64,000 nucleotides of DNA from Nereocystis luetkeana (lineage: Eukaryota; Sar; Phaeophyceae; Laminariales; Laminariaceae): NCBI GenBank assembly GCA_031213475.1, contig JARUPZ010000036.1:682001-746000 (forward strand). The letters run 5' to 3'. The notes below the pieces were generated by a model that saw only the letters and a program-made list of their open reading frames with translations, ran no database searches and had not been told where the DNA came from. This document shows positions 4,580 through 55,500 of the stretch, piece by piece. The position numbers and the translations under genes were made by a program. The first letter of the stretch is position 1. Each line of letters opens with the position of its first letter.

Positions 4580-4942
4580 GTACAGTGTGCTACTGACACC
4601 GACATATGATACGGAGTGCTGCACAGAGGGGGAGACTCGTGCTCGGAGAAGACAGTACATCATTTCAGCGGTAGCACTACTGACTGTACTCAATCAACCC
4701 AGTGAACACGTGTGATGTCACACCCACACAATACCGCAGCAGAGCAGACAGATGGACACACCAGGTATGAAATTATTGTTAGAGCTGCATGCGGGCGATA
4801 GAGCCTGCTCAAGATGCTCACCTCTCTGCTTCCGAACTGAGAGGATTCTTCACACAGCCACACACTACCGAGACCCAAATCGAGCGATACACACTACGTA
4901 GATTATCGTACTGCTAACTGGAGCACTACTACTCTGCTGTGT
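4580..4942. other. No gene recognised
   Basis: Mixed-composition sequence between the miniature LTR element and the LINE fragment. No coding frame with recognisable content and no RNA gene was seen. Confidence 0.4.
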
Positions 4943-6226
4943 GGGGAGAACCCGAGACCAGGCGGACAGTGTTAAGACTTGGCATAGATGCATAGTCGAA
5001 GACCTTAGGGAGTTCCGAGCCACCGAAGGGTCAACAGAACTTGCCCCCTTGGTGTTTGGAGTTGAGACCGCGTTGTGGTCTACTGCAGCCAAAAAGGCGG
5101 GGAAGTGGTACCGGGGGATCCTTGAAGCAGCCGAACGGTTCATGATGAGTTGGCACGAGGCTGAGGCTGACATGAGTAGGCAGCGCCGCGCATCCGCCGT
5201 GGGTGGTGCCCAAGGGAATGGGGGGGGGGGGGGCAACAGGAGAAGTGGCAGACAACCCGACCAAGGGAATGCAGAGAGGGGGCGGAACAGGAGGAGTAGA
5301 AGGGAAACTGCGGCGATCGTAGGAATAAGGAGATGGCAGACAGGGTAGCAAGGCACCAGGCGACTAGGAAGTAGTACATGACTACACTACTAGTGCCACC
5401 AACTGGTGCAGCTGGTTCGAAGGTGTGGTCTTCCTTTGTCTTCTTCTCTTCTTTTGGTTTTGTTTTCTTTTTCCTTTTTCGCGCTGATTCGCCGTGATTT
5501 TTTTTTAATTATTTGTCTTCCTTGTTTCGATTGAGGAGCCGTATTGAAGGAGTCGTGTGGCGTGGGAGGATGACGAGCCTGCTCTGCTTGTTTTGTATTG
5601 TCTGACGCCAAGGGGCTGGGCATAGTGGACGAACGCAGGGCGGAGACGGCAGTCTGGGTAGCAAGGTACCAGGCGGACTAGCAGGGAGAACCTGGCTATG
5701 CTACTCGTACCACAAACTGCTGCCGCTACCAGGAGGGTGCTTTGTGCTTTGGTTTGCCTGGTATTTTCCCTTTGTTCTTTTCCCTTGGTTCTTTGTCCTA
5801 CTCTCTGTTTACAAGTAGTGTTTTTTTCTTATTTTTCCTTTTTCCCAGCTCGTTATTTTCAAGTGTTTTTTGCCACATCGCCTGCGGGGGGGGGCACGAC
5901 AGTTTGGTTCTTCTATTTTTTCTTTTTTTCTATTTTTATTTTTCTCCTTCGATTTGTCTTCTTTGTCTTCGTTTTTTCTTTGTTTCCTTTCGTTCATCTA
6001 TTTCTTAGAATGTGTATGTCGCGCCTGTCGTATCCGGTACGGTGACATGGCATTGCATTGCCCACTGTGCTTACTGCATACATGGCAACGTAGTATCTCT
6101 GTGGCGTAGCTTTGTGACCACAGAACTTGTATCTCTTCTAGGATTGAAGAATCGTTACGGACACTTTGGTTGTGCTGGATGTCGACGGGTAGAAATAACG
6201 GTTTAATGTGAAGAACACACACACCC
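4943..6226 (+). mobile_element. 5'-truncated LINE: RT C-terminus plus 3' UTR
   Basis: This block aligns over about 1.3 kb with 53990-55296. Its first 400 bases encode the C-terminal tail of a LINE reverse transcriptase: TWHRCIVEDLREF-like wording, then KKAGKWYRGILEAAERF, then a basic/Gly-rich end. A pyrimidine-rich 3' UTR of about 850 bases follows and ends GTGAAGAACACACACAC, a CA-repeat tail. The equivalent tail at 53.9 kb extends farther upstream, so this is a 5'-truncated insertion. The coding part is a relic. Confidence 0.75.
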
Positions 6227-7115: not shown

Positions 7116-7757
7116 ATGTTTCGCACCAATCACACGCACGCTATTAGTAGATGGCACGCCTCCTGGGATGAATTTCTGAGCCGGGTTTCTCCGAACCCAA
7201 GGGGGTACACACAAGGAAAACGGACGCGTCGCTCGGCGTATGCGCCTTCTCCATTGTCTAGAAAACCACCTTCGAAATTCAGGGGGTATTGTCAGTTGTA
7301 ATTTCGATGCATGTTGTTAACGGTATGTATGTAAAGAAGTACCGGTAGCTTTACTTTGCATTGGAGTTACATGATCGAACACGCGTTCACTTTACATTAT
7401 TATTACCGGTACGTTCACTTTGCGTCGACACTTCACATTGTTGTTACTTTTATTTGTGATTTTATGATTCATCTTACATAAATACGTAGAGGGAAAAACC
7501 GATCTCAGCAGTGTGTCTCTTGTGGATCATACACGGGGGAGGGGGCGAGGGGGGGGGGTCACACCTAGATCCTAAATTACTTTACTTTTTGGTGGAACAT
7601 CCACTATTAATCATGGCATCTATCTACTATAGCCGTAGCTAGAGTGTACGCCTTTGCCTGTGACAACCGACGGTCTTGATCTTGATTTTGGCGAACAGTT
7701 AGTTAGGCGGGGTTGTCAGTAACATCGTGACAACAAAACCACAACGAAAAACTACTG
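7116..7757. other. 5' flank of the RING-RT element; no gene
   Basis: Non-coding, with a G-rich run at about 7536-7557. It may include the 5' untranslated region of the retrotransposon that starts coding at 7758. No promoter motif could be supported. Confidence 0.35.
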
Positions 7758-9055
7758 ATGTATGCCGTTCAGGAGGAGACATCGCACGAGGACGATGCAC
7801 CTAGCACGGAGAGAGCTAGGGTAGAAGTGAGAGGGGGCCTCCATCACACCAATAGCGGTACCACGGTTGGAAGAGGTCCCAACGGAGCGGTGGCGCAACT
7901 CGGACCGTCCACAAGGGCGGTAACAACAGTAGGCGAACGGCGGCGGGCCACGACGAGAGTACCTACAGAGGACCTTATATCCACCAGGACAAGGGCTCGC
8001 ACCCGGATAGCCGCTAGGGCAGTCGCACAGTCATCGGAGGAGGAGGAAAGACGCCAACCTCCCACCGAGTCGCTTCACGGATCCTCCCGTCAGCAGCCAA
8101 CGACGACGCAGCTTACGTCATCGATAACACTTTTGGAGCCGGCACCGTCGTCGCCGGAACCATCTCCGGATACACCCCGTTCAGCACAGCGGGCGCGAGA
8201 AACCACGCAACCACCGACGGCAACGGGTGCGGGGACTCCCTTGACGACCACCCTTCCGCTTGGGGTACCCGCCACGGAAGGTTCGCCGCCGTCGCCACCA
8301 TCCCCGCCACCGCGTCTACCGACAACTACCCGTCCCTCGACAGACACACCATTTCTGACGCCGGACATGATCCTTGCGCTCGAATCGTCAATGCAGTCAG
8401 CGGCTGGAATGGCACAGTTGGCGCCACCAAGTTCATCGCAACCGACGTGCGCATCGACACAGGGTGGAGGAAGTTCGGAACCCGCGCTGACGTCCGAACC
8501 ACCGCCATCGCCACCACGGCCACCATTACAGACGCCAGCAGAAAGAGGGCAGCCCCAGCAGGAGGCTTCGGAAGACTGCTGCGTGTGCTACGAGGCCTTG
8601 GTGGCCGCGATGGCATATCTAAGGAACTGTCCTCACCGGCTGCACGTACCGTGCTACGCCGCACTTCGTGTTGGGGAAGGGGCCGACCTGCGCTGCCCGG
8701 CGTGTCGGGCGACCGTAACAATTGGCGAAGCCGACGGGATGGCGTCCCGTCAGCACAGTGACGAGATTATGTCAGAGGCCCTAGCGATCGCGCGGCAGGA
8801 GATACCGGCCGAGAGGGGAAGGGGGGCATCCACAAGGACCACAGGGGGTGAGAGGGGCGAACGATTGATATGTAGCATGTGCCATGGACTGGTTGAGAAG
8901 ATTGAACGCGTACAGGTGTCCTGCTCGTGCGACGTGCATCGCCGCTGCGCTTTAGGCTTTTGCGAGGACGCAATCCCTCGACCCAGATTCATCGACGAGG
9001 CACGCCAAGTCACGTGCCCGAACCCCGCCCTACACGAAGTTCAACAAGAGGTGGA
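7758..9055 (+). pseudogene. Retrotransposon 5' ORF: RING finger protein, part 1
   Basis: The ATG at 7758 opens a frame with about 270 residues of low-complexity Pro/Thr/Ser/Arg sequence, likely disordered. A RING-type module follows at 8577-8705: CCVC, then CPHRLHVPC, then CPAC, i.e. Cys-x2-Cys ... Cys-x-His-x2-His-x2-Cys ... Cys-x2-Cys. A second treble-clef-like module starts CSMC at 8871 and continues CSCDVHRRC to about 9017. RING domains usually recruit ubiquitin-conjugating enzymes; in a retrotransposon they could instead bind nucleic acid or protein. The reading continues in the +1 frame near 9020-9060, where a coiled-coil-like stretch (DERDLVNRVTVAENRL) appears. Confidence 0.65.
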
Positions 9056-10270
9056 CCAGCCGCCCCCTCCTGCAACAGATTCGTACTATTGGCAAGTCGG
9101 CGGACACGCAGGACGAACGCGATTTAGTGAACAGGGTCACCGTTGCCGAGAACCGCCTTCGGAGCAGGACCCACATTGTGCCGGAAAGGGGGGGCTGGAC
9201 ACTGAACGCCACAGCGCGAGACGAGGAGAACCTCTCTTGGGACTGGCGTAGCACGATTCCACAACCGTATGCGCTATGTGGGGTCTGCGACAGGACTATG
9301 GAAGACGGCGAGAGGTTTTCTTTCTCCGGTTGGCTCGTCCACAGGAGATGTGCCGTTGAAAGCGTAGAGGGAGCAGACAATAGGGGAGACGACCGGTTTG
9401 GGGTAGCCATTCGGGAAGTAACAGGACCGTCGCGTCGGAGGACGTTCCTCCTCACGGAAATTCTGCCGAGGATCCATCTGAGGTGCGACCGCGCTTCCGA
9501 TCGGGGAGCCTATCAACAGCGTCAGTTGGAAATCCTACGGCGATCGGTGATCTCAGGTGTGGAGGAGGCCACAAGCCAGGACGAAGGCCGCCAGCAAGTA
9601 CAAGGAGGGAGGGGAGATGACGCCGAAGCATCGTGCACCTATTGCGGCCAGGTTTTAGATGACTCTGCAGGAGAGTCGGGGAGCAGCCACGTGCGAGTAT
9701 CTATCCCGTGCGCCCACGGAGGGTTTGTGCATGCACACTGCATGCTGGACCGGGCAGAGCGCATCAAAAGAGAGGGCATGCAGACCCGAGGTTCTGCGTA
9801 GTGTGCCAGTCGTCGTGGCCGGAGGGGGGCAGGCCACCCCACCCGGCCGAACTTGCCAGAGGGCTGCCCATGTCCGAGCAGGGGGGGAGGTGGGCGGCGG
9901 TGAGTAGTGCCCTGCAGTTCGCCGCCCTCCTTGAGCGGAGTGACCTCGGCGCGGAGTCAGCCAGTTACGTGACGACCGGGGTTCACAACACGTTCGAGCA
10001 CATGGTGAGTGCCCTCGGGAGAAGCCCAACCTCTTGGTTGGTGTTGTGCTCCTTGTTCAGCGATGCGCTGGATCTACCACACCAGGCCTACCTCGATTTC
10101 CCCCGAACAAGGGAATGGGAAGCGGCGGCCGCCCACTATCATACGTTGTTCGCCGCGTACGGCATCCGACCCCAGGACGTATTACTCCGACTTCGAAACC
10201 GGAGGCTCTACATTGGACCTCATGTCCAAGGGTATTTGGCGGGCCTTGACGCCGAATGGGAGGAACGAAT
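9056..10270 (+). pseudogene. Retrotransposon 5' ORF, part 2: modules 3 and 4, repeat unit A
   Basis: In frame 1 this encodes a Cys/His module at 9277-9351 (CGVC, then LVHRRC) and the start of repeat unit A at 9634 (CTYC, then SIPCAHGGFVHAHCMLDRAER). A 2-nt length difference near 9780 moves the rest of unit A to frame 0: GHADPRFCVVCQ, then a conserved block SYVTTGVHNTFEHMV and LGRSPTSW. The unit ends with AEWEERM near 10265. There a perfect 13-bp tandem duplication (AATGGGAGGAACG at 10255-10267 and 10268-10280) returns the sequence to frame 1. Unit A is homologous to unit B 864 bp downstream. Confidence 0.65.
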
Positions 10271-12450
10271 GGGAGGAACGACTGACGAGGTGGACCCTCG
10301 GTGTCCAAAGGGCGCTGGAGGCAGGTGACGCGCTGCCTCCTTTTCCGACGGCGGTGGCGGCCCCGCCGGAGCGGACGGACTCGGCGCAGGGGGACGACCG
10401 CTTAGCAAGGGGGCAGCATGAACAGAGAGGTGCCGCTCCAGGTTCGCCAGAGAGCCGAGAGATCACAAGGGACACCGCGCTATTAATAGTAGGCCTATGT
10501 TTCTATTGCGGTGAGGACACAGAAAACTCAGATAGGAATCCAGAGGTCGACCATCTGAGGACAACCATCACTTGTGACCATGACAACGGACAGTTGGTAC
10601 ACGCCGGCTGCATGCTGGATCGTGCGGAACGCCTCGCATGTGGGCACACAGACCCGCGGCCATGCGTCGAGTGTGGCTCTAAATGGCTCGTAAGAACCCG
10701 ACCTCCCCATCCGGCAGAATTAACTGAGGACCTTCCCAGACCACGGTCGGGGGGAAGGTGGCCGGCAGTAGGAGGTGCCCTGCAGTTCGCCGAACTTCTT
10801 GGGGAGGAGGGCACCCAGCTGGTACCGGCCAGTTATGTGACAACTGGTCATCACCACACGTTCGAGCACATGGTGAGAACCCATGGAAGGAGCCCAACCT
10901 TTTTGTTCCTGCTGAGCTCCCTGTTCAGCGATGCCCTGGGCATGCCTCGAGCAGCTTACCTCGAGTTCCCCCCCCGCGCGAGGGAATGGCAAGCGGCCGC
11001 CGCCGACTACCGTGAGCGTCTTGCCGCGCACGCCATCCGACCAAGGGATATCATGCTCCGACTCCCAAATCGGAGGATCTACATCTCACCACAAGCCCAA
11101 GAGTTTCTGGCAGGCCTCCATGCCGAATGGGAGGAACGCCTGACTAGGTGGACCCTCGGGGTCCGAAATGCATTGGAGGCAGGTGACGTGGTGCCTCCTT
11201 TTCCGACGGCAGTGGCAGACACGCCAGGAGGGGCGGGTCAGGCGCTGGAGAGCGAGCCGTTAATAGGGGGGTATAACGATCAAGGCGGCACTGCTGGAAA
11301 TGCCACAGAGAACCGTCAGGCCGCGGAGAACAGGGACGCTACGTCAGCGGGACAAGTGGGGACCCCCCGGACAACATCCAGCACAGCCCTGGCCAGGTGA
11401 GCCCTCGGGGTACTAAACGTACGGGAAGCAGGTGATGCGCTATCTCCTCTTCCGACGGCAGAGTGGACCCCCGGGGCCCAAAATGCGTTGGAGGCAGGGG
11501 GCGATTAGCCTCCTTTTCCGAAGGCGGCGGTGTCCACAACGGAGGGAACGGTCCCGGCGGCGGAGAGCGGTCCGCAAACGAGGGGGCAGGTGGAGCAAGG
11601 AGGAGCTGCTGGGAGTGCCGTAGAAAGCCGTCACACCGAGGGGGGTAGGGATGCCGCGCTAGCGGGACAAGTGGAGATCCCTCAGGCAAGGCCCAGTACC
11701 GTCTCTGCAACATTTACGGTGGCAACGTCCCCTAGATCAACTGGAAGCGAATCGCCCTCGCGCGAGGGCGGCCAAGGTGGAATAGAGGCAAATGTTGGAG
11801 GTTCCTGTCCAAGTGCTGCGCGGCCTCTGCCCCCGGCGGCCGAAACGACACCACCGGGAGGAGAAGCCCTGGCGTCGGAGGGCGACTCGCGGATAGGGGG
11901 GCAAGTGGATCAGAGAAATGCTGTTGTAGTAGCGATGGCAAACCTTCAAACAGCCAGAGACAGGGATGTCACGCCATCGGGACGCTTGGGGGTCCCCCTG
12001 ACACCATCCGGCGCCACCCCAGCAACGGCTGGGACTATTTCCTCACTGGACTATGTGCTTTGGGCGATGGCCCAATAGGGAGAGGCCGAAGCGGGAAATA
12101 TGGCTACAATACGCGCCGCTGCAGAGATCGTTAGGCACGGCGCAGCCAGGGAGGGGGGGGGCACAGGAGGCGGACGAGGTCGACCGCGAGGGTCTAGGAG
12201 GGGGTCACGAGCGACAAGCACTGGGAGAGAGGCCGTCACGAACCGGGGAAGAATCCCTCGACCCGGCGGCAGTGAGCCACCCTCGGTTCCTGAACCGAGA
12301 GGGGGCAGCGAGTCGCCCCCGACGCCCGGATCGAGAGGGGGCAGCGAGCTTCGTTCGGATCCTGGATCGAGAGGGGGAGGTGGCGAAGAGAGAGAACTCC
12401 CCAGGGAAGGAGAAGGTAGCGAGGGGGAGGATCAGCATCGGGGGGCGTAG
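10271..12450 (+). pseudogene. Retrotransposon 5' ORF, part 3: repeat unit B and linker repeats
   Basis: In frame 1, unit B starts at 10498 (CFYC, then LVHAGCMLDRAERLACGH, then CVECGSKW to 10674), followed by the second SYVTTGHHHTFEHMV block near 10830 and AEWEERLTRWTLGV near 11130. After it a linker phrase (ALEAGDxxPPFPTAV) recurs in progressively eroded form near 10312, 11173, 11425 and 11485, so the linker itself has been tandemly copied. In-frame stops occur at 11398, about 11505 and 12076. The rest to 12450 is Gly/Ser/Pro/Arg-rich and probably disordered. Confidence 0.6.
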
Positions 12451-12862
12451 GGCGACTCCGTGCATCCATTGGCACCAGTCAAGACGGCGTGATGTGCGGG
12501 GGATGCCGAGCGGCAGTTGCTCGGGGGCACGGGGTGGTAGGGCAGCCGTGTGGAAACCAGCACGTTATGCACGCGCGGTGTGTGGTGGAAGCTATTCGAA
12601 GGAGTGGGTCACACGCACAACTCATTTGCGCTACACGAGGGTGCACAGCCCGCCATGGGAGACGGGAATCACTGGAGGCAGCAGTTCAGGCTGATCCTGG
12701 ACTCCGTGTTACGGTCGCAGGACTTGGAGGAAGGCCGGACAACAACTACGATGAACGGGGGGAAGAGCTTTGCTACCCGTGGGACCAGAATTCGTTAGGA
12801 ATAGCAGGGCCACTCGATGATGTTTCTCTCGAGCATCTCCAACAACGTTTATCCCCGTTGTT
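12451..12862 (+). pseudogene. Retrotransposon Cys/His module 6 and bridge to RT
   Basis: In frame 0 the sequence reads VMCGGCRAAVARGHGVV, then CGNQHVMHARCVVEAI, then ICATRGCTARHG (12495-12650). This is again a Cys-x2-Cys ... Cys ... His-x2-His/Cys pattern, matching modules 4 and 5 in layout though poorly in sequence. It continues to a helix-like LEHLQQRLSPLL at about 12830, after which a frame change near 12862 leads into the RT frame. Confidence 0.55.
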
Positions 12863-15800
12863 AAGGTGCAGTCGGGGCTACCTGCGGTCCACGCCAAGCT
12901 TCTCACCCACGTGCTCGGTCTCCTGAACCACGCCCTCGGAGCGCATCGGCCAAACAGACACTCCGAGACGCCGAGTTCGCTCCTCGAGGCCATCAAGCTG
13001 TGGTACATAGTGCCAGCACTGCTACACTCGCAGGACAGCCGCGTGAAGCGACACGAGAGATTCGCGTCCGTCGAACGTGGTGACATCACGCTTATTCTCC
13101 CGTGGTTGATGAAGTACACCAGTCGAGCATCGACACGGCGCAGGGGCCCAACCTACGAAGCCACAGACGCGGCCAAGTACGAGAGAGCGTCGTCAGCCTG
13201 TCGCCACTCGGGCGGGGTGTCAGCGGCAGCACGCGGTCTTCTCGCGAAAGCTCGAGCGCCCGGCGGCGAGGTGACATGGGAGCGGGTGAAAACCAAATTC
13301 CCGGGGGAAGACCGTGCCTCCATCTCCGAATCGGTAGTGGCAGAGGTGACAGCAAGCTCCACGGAACCGGAGGAAGGGAGTGTTCCCAACTGGCATCCAG
13401 AGCAAGAGTTCGATTCGCAGGTGGCCCTCGACGTCATCAACTCCCGAAATGCGTTATCAGGCGCGGGGAGTGACGGTTTACGCTTCTCACACCTGCAGTC
13501 GATCATCAGGACCGGCTTCGGTCGCGAGAAGTTTGGAGCTAGCATCGAGGCCCTTTGGAGGCGGATCTTCGACGACCCCGGTGCATTCCCGCCGGAATTC
13601 TGGCAGCTCTTCTTGCAGTCCAACCTCACTGCCTTGGGGGGAAAATGTCGCCCCATATGTGTAGGTATGACATGGAGACGTCTTCTCGCAGCTGGGACGG
13701 TGCGGCAGTGGCGGCCACGGCTGGAAGAGATTAATCGTGAGGCAAGGCAGTTTGGGGTAGGGGTTCGAGGGGGGGTGGAGCAGGTAGCTCTACGCGCCCG
13801 GGTGCGCCATGAGGCAAGAGACTGGCCCATCCTAACTGACTGTTCCAACGCCTTCAATACTGTAAAGTGGACGGCAGTACTTGCCGAGGCGGCCACTTGC
13901 GTGCCTGCGCTCACGCCGATCATTGTTAAATGCTACGGCGAGAGGCCCGCCCCTACGTTCTTCCAGATGGATTCAGGGGAACAGCGTAAAATTGACTGTT
14001 CCAGTGGAGTGCAGCAAGGGGATGCCATGGGCCCGACGCTGTTCTGCATGCCACTGCTGTCAATACTCAAGCGGGTCCGTGAGGAGTTCGAACCCCGGGG
14101 TGTTGAAGCATTTGTCTACCTCGATGACATCAGCATCGGTATGTCAGAGATCACACCGGACACGGTGAGAGTAGTGCCCTTTCTCCAGCACGAGCTGTGC
14201 GAAGTAGGCATTGCCTTTAACCCCAGAAAGACGGTTGCTTTGCCTCCAAAAGGGCATGTGCCTACGTCGGAAGAGATAGCACTTCTGAGGGGCATAGGTG
14301 TTCGCATTGCGGAAAGAGGTGGGGTAAAGGTGGTTGGCGTGCCCATAGGCACTGATGCATTCGCGGTGAACAGCGCCGTGGAGATAGTCCGAGATGGGGG
14401 AGCAGAGCAACTCGCGCGCATCCTGCCGCGCATGCCGGACAAACAGTCGGCGAACCTCATCGCCACCAGTTCAATGGTGCAGCGGACCTCCTACATTGAG
14501 CGGGTAATGGACCCGGAGCTGTCACTACCCGCGTGTCATCGGGCAGACACTAGCGCAATGTGGATGCTCGAGCGCCTTTTCGAGCTTCCAGGGACAGCGG
14601 ACGAATCGCCGTTCTTTGCGGACGGATGCCCGGCGAACCGGTTGACGCTACAGCCCCACCAGAAAGCGCAGGCGAGCCTCTCCACAGGGGCCGGGGGGTT
14701 TGGACTGTCGTCGGCTGAATCAAGGGGAATGTCAGCGTCCATCGGGAGCTTAGTGGCGACGGTGCCAGAGGTCCTCGCTGACCTCTCCGGTCCATTAGGG
14801 AAAAAAGTCCGAAGGGAGTTGCCCAATTCGGACCTCGTTCGCCGCATATGGAGCAGCGTCAGGGACCTTCGCGATATCCATGGGGTATCGGAGGAGGCAA
14901 TGGCAAACGTAATCCCGGAAAGTTGGCGGAACAGGGCGTTCCGCGCAAACGAGGAAGGAGGGACAGAACAGTATGATGTGGAGGTACTGCCGGCGCATGA
15001 CGCCCTAACAATCAGCTCCCACAAGGCGCAGTACAAGCTGGGGCTGCAGATCAACCGGGTACGGTACCAACGGTACGTTGCTTCTCTGGGCCAGCTCCCC
15101 AAGGTAGCAGGCCCGTCGGATCGGGACGACGTGTTCGGGGGGACGGAAACCAGAGGTCTTGCCAAGGCTCGGCAACGGAGCCTATCGGGACCAGGCGCTG
15201 TCGCCTGTTTGCGTGCAAGGCCTGTGGACACGGCACGTATCATACCGGCTTCTGAGTTCGTGTCTATGGGACGGCACTTCCTGGGAATGGAGGAGCCCAT
15301 AGCGGCGAGGTGCCCCTGCTGCGAAGCGACGGATGTCGCCACACGTCACGCGCGCAAATGCCACCGAGCAGGCGCGCAGGTTAACCAGCATCAGCCGCTA
15401 GTCCACGCACTGTCTCGCACCTTTAAGCGGTTGTCCATCCGCCATCAAATGGAAAGCGGAGCGCCCTTCAAACGCCAACAGAAACCTCCGCATGGACATA
15501 GTGATCGAGAGGGGAGGCCTCCGAGACGCTACGTCGTCAGAGTACCGCAACAAGGCGATACTCCTCGACATCACGCATGCAGACCCCCAAGCGAGGGTCC
15601 ACATGCGGGCTGGCAGCGCTGATCGAGACGGATCAGCCGCCTCCACTTCTGAGGCGCGAAAGCGCAACCACTACGCCCTTGCAGGACAAGTGTCCTTCGA
15701 CGAGCGCAGCTATAAACTTGTCACCCTCGCGGTGGAAAGATTTGGACGCCTCGGGAAGGAAGGTAGCGATTTCATCGACCAGCTGGCGGCGAGCATCGTT

Positions 15801-16010
15801 GGAGGAACGGACGGGGGATCTTTAGCAAGAAAAGGGGTTTGTAAGGAGCACCTTTTCCAGGTCATATCGGTGACTACCCAGGTCGCGATCTCGCGCAGAG
15901 TGCAGCGATATAAGCTCGCCCTGCGAGACCGCCATGCCGCCAGGGGGGGAAGGGAGGAGGAGGAAGGACTACTTCCCATGGCGTGGGGGTGGAATGTAGA
16001 TGCGGAGTAG
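12863..16010 (+). pseudogene. Reverse transcriptase with C-terminal RLE-like domain
   Basis: The frame is open from 12863 to 15622, then continues in the next frame to 16010. Recognisable pieces in order: RT motif region with GSDGLRFSHLQ (about 13470) and CRPICVGMTWRRLL (about 13650); active-site motif A as DCSNAFN at 13838; GVQQGDAMGPTLF (about 14010); catalytic YLDD at 14117-14128. A long thumb/linker follows, then a CCHC cluster CPCCEATDVATRHARKC at 15311. The C-terminus has RMDIVI (about 15489) and LLDITHADP with Asp at 15567, spaced like the Asp pairs of PD-(D/E)XK nucleases in R2-type elements. A one-base excess near 15475, relative to the second copy, separates RT from nuclease: either mutation or programmed frameshift. 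The nuclease label is inference. Confidence 0.75.
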
Positions 16011-16290
16011 GACGCATGGCGTATAGATACATAGTAGGTTAAATATCTCGGTAAATGGTGGGGGTGCATATTCAAGTGAGTATACGCAGGGAAGGAGAAT
16101 TGGTTAGATGAACTTAGTGGTATTCGATGAATTATGTCAGCTTTTTCATTTTGAATGAATAACGCCCTGCACATTGTCAGAAGGAAAATAATAATAAATA
16201 CATGTATGTACATACCGCGGGATGCTACGCAATAAATAACATAGCACGGAATAAAGAGAGTACTGGAGGTATATGGAACGCAACGCCTCC
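16011..16290 (+). other. 3' UTR of the RING-RT element
   Basis: AT-rich sequence follows the TAG near 16008, with three AATAAA words at about 16193, 16233 and 16251. It runs into the start of homology of the second copy near 16300. Confidence 0.45.
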
Positions 16291-19200
16291 CTCCCAACAG
16301 CTAGCTGCGAGACGATTTCCCTTTTTCCGTACCCATTTTATCCAAAACACCGGCCGAACCGGAACTCGGTGACGCCTAATTCGCTCCTGCGGGCGATAAA
16401 CTTCTGGTATCTCATGCCAGCCCTGCTCCACTCACCGGACGGCCGAATAAAGAGGCCAACGAGGTTCACGCGTGCTCCTGCTCCCATGGCTGATAGCGTA
16501 CACCAGGAGAGGGGACTTGAGACAACGGGATGCCGCCCAGGAAACTTCAGACGAGGCGAAGCTTGAACGAGCGTCGTCGGCGTATTGCCACACAAGAGGG
16601 GTCAAAGTGGCAGCACTCAACCTTCTGGCAGAGCCACGATCAGCGGAGAACGAGAATACTTGGAACACATTGGTAGCCAAGTTCCTCCGACGTGTCCGCG
16701 GCGGCGACTGCTGCAGTCCTGCGAGCGTCACCGACGTGGAAAACGGTAAATCCCCCCTGTGGCACCCTGACGATGAGTACACCTCCGAGGTGCTCTTCGA
16801 CGTCACCTGCTCCCGAAGCGCCCTCTCAGGCCCCGGAAACGACGGTCTAAGATTTTTTCATCTACAATCCACCATCCACACCGACATCGGTAAAGAGGAG
16901 TCTGGAAGGGGTATGACAGCCTTCCGGCGGAGAATCGTCGACGAGCCGCACGCGCTCCCGCCAGAGTTCTGGCGGCTCTTCTTGCAGTCGAGCCTCTCTG
17001 CGTTGGGGGAAAAGTGCCGGCCGGTTTGCGTGGGCATGATATGGAGGAGGCTCATCACCGCTGGGGCTATTCGACAGTGACGGCCGCGGTTGGAGGAGGT
17101 AAACCGAGAGGTGAGGCAGGGTGAGGTCGCCGTACCCGGCGGAGTGGAGCATGTTGGATTGAGGGCGAGGGTGCTACACGAGACGGGCAACTGATTCGTT
17201 CTCACGGAATGCTCTAACACCTTCCACGCCGTGAAAAGGACGGCGGTGATAGAATAGGTGACAAACTGCGTGCCAGCGCTCACGCCTTTAATGGCCAAGT
17301 GTTACGGCACAAGACCAGCCGACGTGTTTTTCCGGATGGACTCAGGGAGACCAGGACGATCGCTTGCTCCAGCGGTGTCCAGCAAGGGACCCCAATTGAT
17401 CAGCAATGTTCTGCCTGTGGCGTTGCGACCGGGGCCAAAGCGATTCAGGCAGGAATTCGAGGGAGAAGGAGTGGACTTGCGTAAGTGGACGATGCCTCTC
17501 TCCGCTTTACGTAGATCACGACCAACACGGTTAGAGCATTGAGGCGTTCTACGATAGAGGTTCACCCTCAATTTTCTGAGATTCATCACTTAAGGAGCTT
17601 CATACTTCACCCAAACTCTAACCTCCGCAAAAATCAAATTGCATCGCAATGAATACCCCCATGGCTCGAGTACTCAATGACTACATTTTTCGAAACAAGT
17701 TTGGCGATACGACGATTTAGGGTTTTAGAAACGCCGTCATTCAGAAAATATTTGAACGGAAACATGCTACCTCTACCGTAGAACGCGTCCATTCGCCTTC
17801 CTCCGGCGAGAGCTAGATGCCATCGCGATTGTGGTCAACGCCGCCGAAACAGTGGCACGAGCACCCAAAGGGCACGTCCCGACGGCGGAGGAGATTTAGC
17901 TCCTTGAAAGCGTTGAGGTCAGCATCGCAGACGAAGGAGGGGTGACGGTGGTGGGTGTCCCGATCGGCACAGAAGAATACATGCGGGGGCGAGCAATGGA
18001 GGTAGTGGGAGACGAGGGCGCGGACCGCCTTGAGAGCTGCCTCGCTAGCATGCCCGACAAACAAGCAGCGGTCCTCATCGCCGTCGAATCTCTCGGGCAA
18101 CGGGCGAGCTACCTCGAAAGGCCTCTGGACCCGCGGCTGTCCCGTGAAGTATGTAGACGGGCAGACAATGGGGCGCAGTGGGCGTACGACAAAGCCCTCG
18201 AGCTACCGGGAGCGGCGGAGGCACAGTCGTTTTTCCAGGAGGGTTGCCCGGATAGTCGGCTGACTCTCAAACCTTACCAGCAGGCCCAAGCACGCCTTTC
18301 TACGGGAGCGAGAGGGTTAGGGCTGCCGTCGACAGAAGCGAGGAGAATGTCGGCTTCCATTGGGAGCATGGTGGGGACCTTGCCGGAGGTTCTGGCAGAC
18401 CTCACAGACCCGTTAGAAAATAAATTGAGGAGGGGGCTCCCAGAATCGAGCATCATTGGTCAGTTGGGAGGCAGCTTGCGGAGATTCGGGACACATGGGG
18501 AGTGGCGAAGGAAGCGATGACGGGCAATCGTCCCCGAATCAGGGCTGGAATGGGGTCTAGGCGCAGAGGGGTACCAGGCCCCAAGACCACCACAGGCCGA
18601 CATGGTGGCTGCGCACGACGCCGTAACCACTATTTCACGCAAAGCCCAGAAGAAGTTGGGCAAGCTGGTGAATCAAGGTCGGCACACTGCCCACACTGCT
18701 TCGCTGGAAGAGCTTCCGGAGACGGCACGCCCCCCCCGGACCGGGCGACCCGATGGGTGGGGCCGAGACCAAAGCCTTCGCCAAGGCTCACTATAGGAGT
18801 CTACAGGGGGCAGGAGCCACGGCATGCCTTCGGGCGAGACCAACGGACTCACTCCGTGTCATACCCGCAGCAGAGGTCGTGGGCATGGGAAGGGGTTTCA
18901 TGGGAATCGAGAAACACGTGGTAGTGAGGTGCCCCTGCTGCGATGCAGTTGACGTGGACACCCGCCACGCTTGCGTCTGTCCCAGACCAGGGGCGCAGGT
19001 AAATCAGCACCAAAATCGTTTGTCCACGCGATGTCCCGTACGTTGAAGCGGCTAAAAATTCGACACCAAGTGGAGAGCGGCGAACTGCTCACCGCAAACC
19101 GAAATCTGCGGATGGACATTGTCGTCAGGAGAGATGGTCTCCGGGACGATCCTAACAGGGAGCTTACGTAGAAGTCCATCCTGTTGGACGTCATCTATGC

Positions 19201-19700
19201 GGATCCTCGAGCGCAGATACACCTCCGAGGAGGCAGTGCTGATCACCATGGACCAGCTGCCTCTCTATCTCCGGGGCGCGCAAGCGCCAACACCACGCTC
19301 GTCCGAGACATGTGTCCTTTGACGAACGGAGTCACAAACTTGCCACTTTAGAGGTGGAAAGCTTTGGGCGTCTCGGGGTAGAGGCAGTAAGTTCATCGAA
19401 CAGCCGGCAGCTAGTGTCGTGGGGGGGAGGGATGGTGGGTCGATGGGAAGGAAAGGATTGGTGAAGGAACGCCTACTTCAAATCGTCTCGGTGACTATAC
19501 ACAGGTCGCCATTTCGAGGAGGGTGTCGCGCTTCAAACTCCAGCTTAGGGACCGCCAGGAAACGAAAAGGAGCAAGGCGAGGGGGATGACAGACCCACAC
19601 CGGTGGCGTGGGGATTTGATAATAGAACGTAACGAGCAGATAACCTTATTGAGACGGAGGAGGAAGCACAGGGACAACAAATGGAGTATGATAATCGTAG
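16291..19700 (+). pseudogene. Second, 5'-truncated and decayed RT copy
   Basis: Homology to the first element begins at its RPNRxS..P.SLL segment and continues in order through the RT: LSGPGNDGLRFFHLQ at 16828, CRPVCVGMIWRRL at 17022, an eroded motif A near 17205, ending like copy 1 near 19600. The catalytic YLDD region is lost and many stops and frame changes are present. The CCHC cluster survives as CPCCDAVDVDTRHAC at about 18930, and RMDIVV at about 19110 marks the nuclease region. The RING array is absent, as expected for 5' truncation at reverse transcription. A MITE is inserted at 17543-17790. Divergence from copy 1 suggests a related subfamily, not a recent duplicate. Confidence 0.75.
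17543..17790. repeat. About 248-bp MITE (GTTCTACGATAGAGGT family), copy 1
   Basis: Terminal inverted repeats GGCGTTCTACGATAGAGGT and its complement ACCTCTACCGTAGAACGCG. It is inserted inside the second RT copy: flanking codons match the uninterrupted first copy near 14165. Copies 2 and 3 are at 33824-34068 and 36725-36957. There is no coding capacity. Confidence 0.85.
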
Positions 19701-19739
19701 ACAAAGCATAGCGGGAGACACAAGGTAGCTATTAATAGA

Positions 19740-19895
19740 GACCTTGTGCATAGGTTTCCTTTGTTCCCGCGGTTTTCTCCTTCCAGGAATGTTTTGAGTG
19801 ATCAACGTTGAAGTGTGAAGGTGTTACCTACTGAGCTATAGGGGTAAAAGACCGATCGATTACCCAGCCCAGGGTATAATCCTTATAACAGAAGC
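19740..19895 (-). repeat. TRIM-like LTR plus internal fragment, minus strand
   Basis: On the minus strand it starts TGTTATAAGGATTATACCC (compare 7046), contains an excellent tRNA box-A match (ATAGCTCAGTAGGTAAC), and continues into TTGATCACTC sequence shared with about 3890-3960. Confidence 0.5.
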
Positions 19896-21236
19896 TCATG
19901 CTGCACATATTGTCGGATGGCAAACACAATAATGAGAAATTAGGGGGGGATACAAGATACACTGCTGCGACAGACGACGGGTGGGGCAGCAAACGTAACG
20001 GCGAGCTTCATTATGAATTGAATGGTGTCACAATGTGTGGGGGCCTTGGCGAGATCTCGTCGAGATCCCAGTTCCTGCGTACAGCGAGCGGTATCTTCGT
20101 CTCTGTACATTGATACCTGGTACGAATAAAAAAAACAACGCAGGCAGCTACTCGCAGTGAGATCGAGGATTTATTTGGTCGAAACTCATCATCTTTTTTT
20201 GCAAGCTTTGTGTGATACTTCGATCGCGCGTACTACGAGAGTTATATGTGGCTTCATGTGATAATTACAGTCGGTAGATGACGAAGAAGACAAATTCTAA
20301 AAAGCTAGCTTTATGTAAATGTTGTGAGACAAACAGACGCACATCGCTCGACGTGCCATTCTCCCTGTCGTGGAGAGGATCATTTATTTGACATACCCGG
20401 TACGTACGTATTGTATGTGTTATGTGGGAGCGTGTGTGTTGTTCACATTGAATTTTGAAACCGTTGTTTTTCACGTCAACATACACACACAGCAGTCACA
20501 CAGTACACACACCCACAGCACAAATAACCACACACAGCAGCAGAGCAGTGTCTGAGCCGATTCTTCAATCCTTGAGAGATATAATATAAGTTCTTCTGTG
20601 GCCACAAAACTTCGACACAGCACAGACACTACATTGTAGTAATAAGGAGAGTGGACAGCGGGAGCAGTGCAATATGCCATGTTGATCGTACTGATACCAC
20701 ACAGGAAGGAACGTACATACCAGGTACCTGGTACCAGCTATTAATATTAATAGTACTACATTCATACACATTCTATGTATAAAAGAGAGAAAAATAAAAA
20801 ACGATTGAAACAAAAAAATATTATCGGAAAAAACAGAAAAAACGAAAAAAAAGTAAAAGTGTTGTGCCCCCCATCGAAGGAGATTGACGATCGAGAATGC
20901 ACCGGCCTACGAACGTAGAACCTACAGACCCACACACCGCAAGAGTCTTCAATCTGCATGTGAAATAGAAAGTGGAAAAATAATCAACCCAAAAAATAAG
21001 ATGAGAACAACAAACAGAAAAAAAATGAAAAAATACAGATAGAAACAGAAAAATGAACCTGCAATACAAGAACTAGAACGCCTCCAGCAGGGGAACGGGG
21101 ACATTAGTTGGCAACCCAGCTGGTACACTGCAGACTGGAGCACCAGCACAGCAGGAGACACTCCCCACGCTGGCAGCCGGCAGCGAGAGAAGAGAGTTGG
21201 GTTGACCTGCCTAGCTTGCCCTTGACGCTGCGCAAC
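19896..21236. other. Non-coding flank upstream of SUGP1
   Basis: AT-rich sequence. About 20490-20690 is a diverged minus-strand LINE tail (CCGATTCTTCAATCC, then GTGGCCACAAAACTTCG). A double TATTAATATTAATA lies at 20739-20752 beside CCAGGTACCTGG. It probably contains the promoter and 5' UTR of the gene starting near 21237, but no core motif can be supported. Confidence 0.4.
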
Positions 21237-52550: not shown

Positions 52551-55500
52551 AGCTGTGACTTGGACCAGTTGAGTGGTCGATACTTGATACCTGGTTTACA
52601 GTATCGCGGCCAAAGAATCTGGTTGACGGCCTACCTGCGCCCCGTCAGGCTTACTTTGACCCGTCAAATCCCCCTCTCGTATAAAAACGTTTTGACCGTT
52701 GGGATATCCTTGACAGCTGTGACCGGATGTATCGTGCTCGTTCCTTGCAGAAACTTTTTATGAAAATGTCAAAGCTGTGAGTTGGATCAGTATAATGGTC
52801 GATATTTGATTTATCGCAGTCTCGTGGCAAGATTTTGGTTGATGAACTACCTTTGCCCCGTCAGGCCTACGTTTGCCCCGTCAAGAATCCTTCTGAAATA
52901 CAATAGTTTTGATCATTGGGATGTCGTTGACGGCTGTCCGTCAAGGGGCAAATGTGCCGTCAGCCGACATCTATGCTCGCTCGTGACGGTAACAATATTA
53001 TGTTCTCTCAATGCCAGCACCCAGATTGGACCTGTTCTCCTTTGGCCGAAACAGGAGAGGCCGCATCCTCCGCGGCTTTCGACAGTTCATGGCGGCAAGA
53101 GTGTGGGGAATATGGGCTGGGGTGGCCGGTCTCATGCTCCGCCGTTGCTTGTGCGTTGAGGGTTGGGCGTTCCAGAAACGAGTGTCGAAATTCCGATTCG
53201 GGCTATTTTACGTGTGAAAGCACGAGTTTTGCGCAAAAATGTGGAGATACGTAGGCTAGCATATGGTCGCGAAACGAACGTCACGAGCCTCTTCGGCTGC
53301 TGTGCACGCCGGGCGACCAGACTCCGTGAGGCAGAGATGATGGATTCTTTGGTTTCGGCCGAATCGGACGAGGCTACGCCGCGGGAGGAACGGTACGGTA
53401 GTGGAGGTACAAACGGTGTCTACAAAAACAATTTTGCACAAACCGAAGCACTGACAGACAGCGTCATATGCATCGTGGAGTTTTAGTGGTGTTGTGAGGG
53501 CGTTTTGTATTATTATGTACCTGCTAAGAAAAAAAGAAGTTATGAAGGAGTACATATACGCCTGTATGTGCGCGTTACGCTCACCCTGCAACATGTTTCG
53601 TTGCTGACCCTCGAGGGTGTGATTGTGCCTCTCCTCGTCGTGCCTACTGCCGTAGAGATGGCCTCTGCTACGCTCGCGCAGTGCCAGACGGGGCACGAGA
53701 AACATCTCAAATACGTCAGCTGTGAGTTGTACCAAATGAGTGGTCGATGCCGATTTCCGTGTACCAGTCGAGTGGTCGATACTGAATTCGACGAGTAGAG
53801 TGATCGATACCCAATTTTGAAAGCTACCAGTATATGATACTGACCATGCCACCCTCTCGTACGCGAAGGCCCTCAAGATGACACGTTGCGAGAGCATCGA
53901 AACGACCATTCGTAAACGGCGGCTCTTCTTTGCGGGGGGCGTGGCACGGCAAAGCAAGGGGCGATTACCCAATCGGGTAATGCTCGGGACGATAGCTGGT
54001 GGGGAGAACCCGAGACCAGGCGGACAGTGTAAGACTTGGCATAGATGCATAGTCGAAGACCTCAGGGAGTTCCGAGCCACCGAAGGGTCAACGGAAGTTG
54101 CCCCCTTGGTGTTTGGAGTTGAGACCGCGTTGTGGTCCACTGCAGCCAAAAAGGCGGGGAAGTGGTACCGGGGGATCCTTGAAGCAGCCGAACGGTTCAT
54201 GGTGAGGTGGCACGAGGCTGAGGCTGAGATGAGTAGACAGCGCCGCGCATCCGCCGTGGATGGTGCCCAAAGGAACGGGGGGGGAGGGGGCAACAGGAGA
54301 AGTGGCATAAAGCCCGACCGAGGGAATGCGGAGAGGGGGGGGAACAGGAGGGGTAGAAGGGAAACGGCGGTAGACGAAAGTAGGAAGGAGATGGCAGACA
54401 GGGTAGCAAGGCACCAAGTCGACTAGGAAGTAGAATATGGCCATACTACTAGTGCTACCAACTGGTGCAGCTGGCTCGAACGTGGTCTTCCCTTGTCTTC
54501 TCTTTTAGTTTTGTTTTTTTTTCTTTCTTGCGCTGACTCTCCGTGATTTTCATTTCATTTTTTCTCTTCCTCTTCCTTTTCTGATTGATAAGCCGTACTC
54601 AAGGAGCCGTGTGGCGTGGTTGGAAGACGAACCTGCTCTGCTCGGCTCGTATTGTCTGACGCCAAGGGGCTGGGCATAGTTGACGAACGCAGGGCGGAGA
54701 CGGCAGTCTGGGTAGCAAGGTACCAGGCGGATTAGCAGGGAGAACCTGGCTATACTACTCGTACCACAAGCTGCTGCCGCCACCTGGAAGGTGCTTTGGG
54801 CTTTGGTCTGCCTGTTATTTCCCCTTTGTTATTTTTCCTTGTTACTTTCTCCTTGGTTCTTTGTCTTACTCTGTTCACAAGCAGTGGTGTTTTTTGTTAT
54901 TTCTTCTTTGTTCCAGCTCGTTATTTTCCAAGTGTTGGCCACCTCGCCTGCGGGGGGGGGGGCACGACAGATTGTTTCTCTTAGATTTTGCTTTCATTTT
55001 TCTTCTTTTTCTTTTTCGATTTGTCTACCTTGTTTTTGTTTCTCTTTGATTGTTTCTTTTCGTTTCACTATTTCATAGATTGCGTATGTCGGGCCTGTCG
55101 TATCTAGTATGATGACATGGCTTTGCATTGCCCACTGCAGTTCACACTGCACACGTGGCAACGTAGTATCTCTGTGGCGTAGCTTTGTGACCACATAACT
55201 TGTATCTCTTCTAGGATTGAAGAATCGGCACGGACACTGGTTGTGCTGGATGTCGACGGGTAGAAAGAACGGTTTAATGTGAAGAACACACACACACATA
55301 TCACAGATATTTCGGTTGACGGCCTACCTTTGCCCCGTCAGGACTGCCTCTGGCCCGTCAAGCCGTCATTTTAAATACTCTTGTTCATGGTATTGGCATG
55401 TCCAATTTTGCAAGCCATGTACCAGTACGTGATGTATCAGTCTCTTTGAGTTGTACCAAATGAGTGGTCGGTACTGCGTTCGACGAGTTGAGTGATCGAT

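Follow-up and report, generated by a model that had tools for sequence, protein, structure and literature searches.

In a 64,000-nucleotide stretch of the brown alga Nereocystis luetkeana (contig JARUPZ010000036.1, positions 682,001 to 746,000; referred to as the window), a copy of a non-long-terminal-repeat (non-LTR) retrotransposon carries six Cys/His modules, M1 to M6, upstream of its reverse transcriptase (RT). The evidence presented below indicates that this copy, assigned to family F1, probably represents a family of long interspersed nuclear elements (LINEs) of very large size and of the restriction-like endonuclease (RLE) type, which encodes a RING resembling that of ubiquitin E3 ligases along with accessory zinc modules. 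The parts follow one order within a single open reading frame (ORF): a low-complexity N-terminus with tandem repeats, M1, M2, M3, one or two units consisting of a RING-like module and a domain of ~175 residues, M6, RT, a CCHC-like motif and an RLE-like end. The unit is single in the copies read from families F2 and F3 and doubled in F1.

One reading frame joins the module array to the reverse transcriptase

The window copy is decayed; its modules, RT and RLE-like end are spread over several overlapping open frames of the + strand. An RT query on the 465-Mb assembly returned at least 58 matches, 49 of 2534 first-look candidates having been scored. In copy C23, a single uninterrupted frame of 2954 residues runs from the six modules through RT and CCHC-like motif into the RLE-like end, and therefore the modules are part of the element rather than of an adjoining host gene. 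In the four other F1 copies that were extended upstream (five copies read including C23), the same frame is interrupted by stops or frameshifts. In copy C3, which has one stop and one frameshift in the module region, the frame reaches further upstream than in C23 and is interrupted there by two stops; this suggests a full protein of near 3900 residues and an element of near 12 kb. Its N-terminal coding part harbors two tandem repeats, one of 222 bp in 4 copies (74 residues) and one of 156 bp in 3.3 copies (52 residues). The original prediction that the array lies in the element's own ORF was thus borne out, with relatives in two further lineages, and neither relatives lacking the Cys/His region nor an independent host gene were found.

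The physical association of M1 and RT recurs throughout the assembly. Considering the best 150 of 205 candidates obtained with M1 as query (identity from 100 down to 41%, some contigs repeated), at least 65 are followed within 0-9 kb by an RT match of the same strand, as compared to 2 with RT upstream and 3 with RT on the opposite strand; the figure of 65 is a lower bound, as 202 RT matches were used for pairing. Median distances between M1 and RT are 3972 bp in F1 (n=22) and 4457 bp in F2 (n=43). No relatives of M1 were detected in a viral contig collection, and no relatives of the RT either in this collection or in a collection of genome contigs.

Within the window, a loose full RING pattern matches three times in six frames (8577, 8871 and 12495), always on the + strand and inside the element, while 300 dinucleotide shuffles of region 7731-12950 yield a mean of 0.003 matches and never reach three. 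The strict C3H2C3 pattern has a single match (8577) and none in the 300 shuffles. A half-RING pattern matches five times, four times in the element and once at 20500 on the - strand; shuffles of the same region average 0.03 matches. M3 and M5 escape the RING and half-RING patterns used. All six module starts given in the original prediction proved exact.

Further lineages carry the same architecture. In the sister family F2, copy L050 has a frame of 2485 residues comprising M1, M2, M3, one M4-domain unit, M6, RT and RLE-like end, and copy L049 contains M1 to M4 in a frame of 2235 residues. The F2 RT is ~70% identical to that of F1, and its catalytic motif reads YMDD, as compared to YLDD in F1. 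The RT of a third lineage, F3 (copy L071), shares 82-83% identity with F2 and 59% with F1, and its modules follow the same order as in L050 as far as read (into the RT). The F2 and F3 copies read have five modules. A fourth lineage, L072 (G000:C18:4831500-4833300), possesses both M4-domain units.

Comparison of C23 (F1) with L050 (F2) revealed that selection at the protein level maintains the array along with RT and RLE. Identities and ratios of non-synonymous to synonymous divergence (omega, NG86 method) are 84% and 0.06 for M1, 72% and 0.13 for M2, 59% and 0.23 for M3, 61% and 0.36 for M4, 73% and 0.19 for the ~175-residue domain, 50% and 0.36 for M6, 69% and 0.15 for RT, and 77% and 0.10 for the CCHC-RLE part; these omegas are rough because synonymous divergence (dS) ranges from 0.6 to 2.8 and is near saturation in several segments. 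Long linkers are 31-35% identical and short inter-module linkers 49-56%. Of the candidate ligands of M1 to M4, 27/28 are kept, and within residues 510-1110 Cys and His are kept at 36/42 positions versus 350/558 for other residues (p=0.0014).

Module 1 and the accessory modules

By its sequence, M1 is a credible bona fide RING-H2 with features of E2-activating RINGs. All eight ligands are kept between C23 and L050. In 20 divergent copies (55-81% identical, selected for absence of an internal stop), the successive ligands are retained in 15/19, 19/20, 17/20, 18/20, 20/20, 17/20, 18/20 and 16/20 cases, and mean retention at non-Cys/His positions is 0.65. A profile of M1 retrieved 21 matches from PDB, led by Deltex 1 (DTX1, E=1e-4), Deltex 2 (DTX2, 1.8e-4) and AMFR (0.0032), the last spanning profile positions 6-62. 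Twelve of the 21 are named as E3, RING or Deltex proteins, six more are presumably RING proteins (NSE1 three times, NOT4, EL5 and AT5G66160), and three are others (9o8u and two Jade-1 entries). A single-sequence search gave 16 matches (E 0.013-1.7), of which 13 are RING proteins, some of them by our own assignment. A hydrophobic residue before the second ligand (kept in 19/20 divergent copies), a Pro after the seventh (19/20) and an Arg after the eighth (18/20) are marks of E2-activating RINGs, and we take the position of this Arg to be that of the linchpin. The linchpin Arg is described as stabilising E2~ubiquitin (PMC12326332). Thus, the module that had been singled out as a bona fide RING holds up in its strict C3H2C3 spacing, its matches to Deltex and AMFR and its conservation between F1 and F2. 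The idea that M1 is the sole most conserved part of the protein was rejected by a sliding-window comparison, in which 85 of 1685 ungapped 44-residue windows of the F1/F2 alignment reach the 37 identities of M1; some of these overlap M1, and the remainder belong to the domain, the RT and the RLE. M1 thus shares its high level of conservation with several other segments.

The modules M2, M4, M5 and M6 appear RING-like by their spacing, with weaker support than M1. All eight candidate ligands of M2 are kept in L050, and M2 has the Pro feature of M1 without its other E2-type features, while M4 to M6 carry neither the Pro nor the Arg. The profile of M6 retrieved five PDB matches, all of them RING proteins and all weak (E 0.08-1.2). 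M3 was rejected as a RING since only C-x2-C and H-x2-C are conserved; these four ligands are all kept in L050. From the six RING-like modules originally proposed there thus remain a RING-H2 (M1) and four modules with RING-like spacing, whereas M3 drops out and M4 and M5 go back to one duplication.

This duplication comprises the module and its adjacent domain. The two F1 units, repeated 858-871 bp apart, share 157/250 residues at dS 0.81 and a non-synonymous divergence (dN) of 0.26; the resulting omega of 0.32 indicates that, once duplicated, both units continued to be maintained as protein. Three aligned versions of M4/M5 agree in all eight ligands, whereas L050, L071 and L072 each lack single ones. 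A profile of the ~175-residue domain found zero relatives among PDB sequences, and none were found in Pfam. The second unit of L072 groups with the second unit of F1 (support 0.997), and its first unit falls together with the first F1 unit and the single F2/F3 units (support 0.645; unrooted tree). A recent gain of the sixth module in F1 was rejected, because L072 also has both units; as this pair groups with the F1 units, the duplication is older than F1. The single F2 unit is 71% identical to the first and 58-59% to the second F1 unit. It is possible that F2 and F3 lost the second unit, or that the duplication occurred after the split from F2/F3 and the second unit then changed rapidly.

Element class, dispersal and window context

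The element is most likely an RLE-type LINE, its endonuclease being recognized by motifs only. The predicted RT with YLDD was confirmed at the domain level (Pfam RVT_1), and among eight PDB matches of the RT profile the five best are R2 proteins (E 1.2e-5 to 0.004), followed by three retron RTs (0.44-0.53), which suggests a likeness to R2 within the sequences of PDB. RLE elements are described as having a CCHC motif, CX2-3CX7-8HX4C, before an endonuclease with the core D ... D ... KX2KY (PMC5678591). The CCHC-like motif and RLE-like end that had been proposed are both present, and D, D, K and Y of RMD...ILLD...KRNHY are kept between F1 and F2; in the window copy a frameshift lies within this end, between 15403 and 15489. 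The RLE assignment is motif-based, because the PDB profile search gave no R2 RLEs and the RT-RLE structure model was unusable.

Common 3' termini, 5' truncation and a 7-bp putative target-site repeat are LINE-like. At 28 of 30 loci the same 3' terminus is followed by an A-rich tail and by varied flanks, so that dispersed copies, some of them 5'-truncated, have a common 3' end; this set includes the window copy (as L001) and the pair L007 and L008, which seem to be a single copy, while L014 and L027 stop short of the 3' terminus. Apart from the repeat at the window copy, an 11-nt repeat flanks L029, and in the remaining copies repeats are short, were not found or are confounded by microsatellites. 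Over long alignments, five F1 copies are mutually ~97-99% identical, and blastn over 7765-16201 gives 95-96% identity between these five genomic copies and the window copy, which suggests that F1 was fairly recently active. Copies C23, C7, L021, L023 and L029 start within (AAT)n or immediately behind an A-rich tail that belongs to another element. A preference for A/T-rich tails as target is possible. L007 and L008 (on contigs C2 and C1271) represent an internally deleted copy, in which ~560 bp of the 5' region are directly followed by the last part of M6 and by the RT; both contigs yield identical matches and may be an assembly duplicate.

The interval originally predicted, 7758-16010, covers nearly the whole window copy, which however is 5'-truncated at 7765 and not a full element. 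Its GC content is 0.60-0.62 over 8-16 kb versus 0.49 in the preceding 2 kb. Elsewhere in the assembly, PF19114 (EsV-1-7), a motif that is expanded in brown algae, has at least 150 matches (150 of 1711 candidates scored), as compared to matches in 0 of 14 control genomes. The F2 copy located downstream is 82-83% identical to L050 over 16347-17536 and 17791-19614 and matches it again at 19890-19922 at the 3' end; used as query, the F2 piece gave at least 150 matches (the best 150 of 1192 candidates). A ~255-bp insert at 17537-17790, inside the RT of this copy and absent from L050, has 24-bp inverted ends that are 88% complementary and resembles a small non-autonomous DNA transposon. Two + strand fragments, 4902-5348 and 53821-54426, represent one translated repeat ('HRCIVEDLREFRATEGST..') without a Pfam match, and Pfam had zero matches for seven other ORFs of the window.

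Table 1. Coordinates of the F1 element, its modules and the neighbouring F2 copy (window positions unless a locus is named)
Feature	Position	Strand	Details
F1 copy of the non-LTR element	7765-16201	+	5'-truncated, frameshifted, A-rich tail at 3' end
Putative target-site repeat	7758-7764 and 16202-16208		ATGTATG, 7 bp, on both sides of the window copy
M1, RING-H2	8577-8705	+	C-x2-C-x13-C-x-H-x2-H-x2-C-x13-C-x2-C, then R
M2, RING-like	8871-9035	+	C-x2-C-x13-C-x-C-x2-H-x2-C ... C-x5-H
M3, CCHC	9277-9351	+	single C-x2-C ... H-x2-C motif, not RING
M4, RING-H2-like	9634-9806	+	window frameshift parts ligands 1-6 (9634-9741) from 7-8 (9795-9806)
D1, ~175-residue domain after M4	9837-10308	+	SYVTTG..FEHM..GRSPTSS
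M5, RING-H2-like	10498-10674	+	duplicate of M4
D2	10705-11169	+	duplicate of D1
M6, RING-like	12495-12656	+	adjoins RT
Open frame with RT, thumb and linker	12821-15622	+	
RVT_1	13643-14242	+	Pfam E=5.7e-15
RT motifs	13838, 14006, 14117	+	DCSNAFN, GVQQGD, YLDD
CCHC-like motif	15311-15361	+	C-x2-C-x8-H-x3-C
RLE-like end	15383-15773	+	NQH 15383, RMD 15489, ILLD 15555, ARKRNHYA 15654, FGRLG 15741
F2 copy	16347-19922	+	5'-truncated; blastn to F2 copy L050
Tandem repeats of C3 N-terminus	L036:1748-2633 and L034:1-518		

Proposed ubiquitin ligation, its alternatives and known systems

How might such an element make use of its array? By analogy to R2, the element protein would bind its own RNA, and the RLE would nick DNA to allow copying by target-primed reverse transcription. 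M1 may recruit E2~ubiquitin and act in cis as an element-encoded E3, whose targets could be host silencing or repair factors at the integration complex, which would be removed or remodelled, or the very large element protein itself, which would be turned over. The remaining modules would bind protein or nucleic acid and take part in assembly. That the family represents a mobile element with its own fused RING-H2 E3 and duplicating RING-like adaptors, which links its retrotransposition in cis to the ubiquitination of host or element proteins at the insertion complex, is a tentative proposal to which we give somewhat less than an even chance.

The array could instead be a platform for binding nucleic acid, either target DNA or template RNA, in which RING-like folds have replaced the C2H2 and Myb fingers of R2 and which has no ubiquitin activity. 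Its location fits, as RLE elements keep N-terminal fingers at this position before the RT (one to three zinc fingers in Utopia; PMC4640811), and so do the Arg-rich low-complexity linkers around the modules and the absence from M2 and M4 to M6 of the full set of M1 features. We nevertheless consider this platform unlikely, as M1 ranks among the best-conserved segments and shows both E3-type features and matches to E3 RINGs, and the diverse flanks of the copies do not obviously call for a large sequence-specific DNA reader. The features of M1 favour ubiquitin ligation over nucleic-acid binding, a choice that sequence alone does not decide. TRIM/PML-type proteins serve as assembly scaffolds, and the modules might likewise mainly mediate self-association or formation of ribonucleoprotein bodies, with M1 as a relic RING. 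A chain that combines several RING-like modules, a unit kept under selection in two copies and a long repeat-rich N-terminus would suit such a role, yet a pure scaffold has no need to conserve the putative E2-contact positions of M1, which are conserved across lineages; we regard this explanation as rather improbable. Finally, the several broken frames that hold the modules of the window copy might point to chance Cys/His spacing, or to an unrelated host gene adjoining an RT fragment. This was rejected and retains hardly any probability in view of the shuffles, the continuous frame of C23 and the one-sided pairing of M1 with RT.

Several observations weigh against an RLE-type LINE with an E3-like RING, in addition to the roughness of the omegas. 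In M1, the three best PDB matches, all to Deltex proteins, span only profile positions 19-54 of 71, and the scores stay below the Pfam cutoffs for zf-RING_UBOX (8.9 bits, cutoff 25.2) and zf-ANAPC11 (13.1, cutoff 25). Hence, profile comparison supports the predicted RING through PDB matches but not through the Pfam RING models, which remain far below their cutoffs. The other modules fare worse against solved structures, where the RING-like array is backed by the weak matches of M6 but by none for M2 and M4/M5: the M2 profile had zero PDB matches, and that of M4/M5 retrieved no RING but only RAG2 and a ribosomal protein (E at least 0.49). M6 scores 13.8 bits with Pfam zf-RING_2 (cutoff 27.3). 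Ligands are also lost, namely one of M2 in L049 (C to Y), the first Cys of M4 in L050, and the first Cys of M6 in both F2 copies read. At the C-terminal side, the CCHC-like motif is spaced one residue shorter than published, with Tyr in place of its first Cys in C23, the RLE-like end has RMD where PD is usual, and its profile gave no R2 match in PDB but three weak matches to unrelated proteins. AlphaFold models were poor for RT-RLE (pLDDT 30) as well as for the modules (pLDDT 34), for which structure prediction, suggested as a check, provided no usable fold.

If the proposal of an element-encoded E3 is correct, a LINE protein can unite insertion machinery and ubiquitin-pathway activity in one chain, and a role of ubiquitination in target-primed reverse transcription or in countering host silencing becomes testable. 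The duplicated ~175-residue domain, lacking a PDB or Pfam relative, is a new structural target.

The RING E3 ligases Deltex and AMFR resemble the element in that they are the best profile matches of M1; they differ in being host cellular enzymes without an RT. A cross-brace zinc finger, a PHD, reportedly occurs in ORF1 proteins of the Jockey superfamily, which are said to be encoded by a separate ORF1 of LINEs with an apurinic/apyrimidinic (APE-type) endonuclease and to contain a PHD rather than a RING. The N-termini of RLE-type LINEs are described as carrying zinc-finger and Myb motifs, and the 'ring finger' mentioned in the same source is part of the RT fold (PMC5678591). The open-access literature, judged mainly by titles and abstracts and with Repbase outside its scope, yielded no non-LTR element with a RING, which is weak evidence of novelty; the system that had been called undescribed may be so termed within the literature searched.

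The RLE clades comprise CRE, R2, R4, NeSL and HERO (PMC4640811). With R2-type LINEs, which are under development as gene-insertion tools (PMC12222951), the element shares the encoding of zinc modules, RT, a CCHC-like motif and an RLE-like end by one ORF, and 3'-anchored, 5'-truncated copies; R2 proteins are also the first PDB matches of its RT profile. It differs in size, since R2 chains in PDB have 1114-1390 residues versus at least 2954 in the element ORF, and in its flanks, which vary between copies; the window contains no rRNA match (an Rfam scan of the 64 kb gave zero matches). HERO elements, compared by description only, are likewise RLE elements, many of which are not target-specific (PMC4640811). 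A counterpart of the proposed activity is found in nematode members of NeSL/Utopia, where an RLE element carries an N-terminal enzyme of a ubiquitin-like pathway (PMC4640811). Theirs is a Ulp1-like cysteine protease, whereas here it is a RING-H2, and Pfam detected no protease family in the C23 ORF or in four upstream frames of C3. If M1 indeed acts as an E3, the element would in this respect resemble those NeSL/Utopia elements that carry a Ulp1-like protease.

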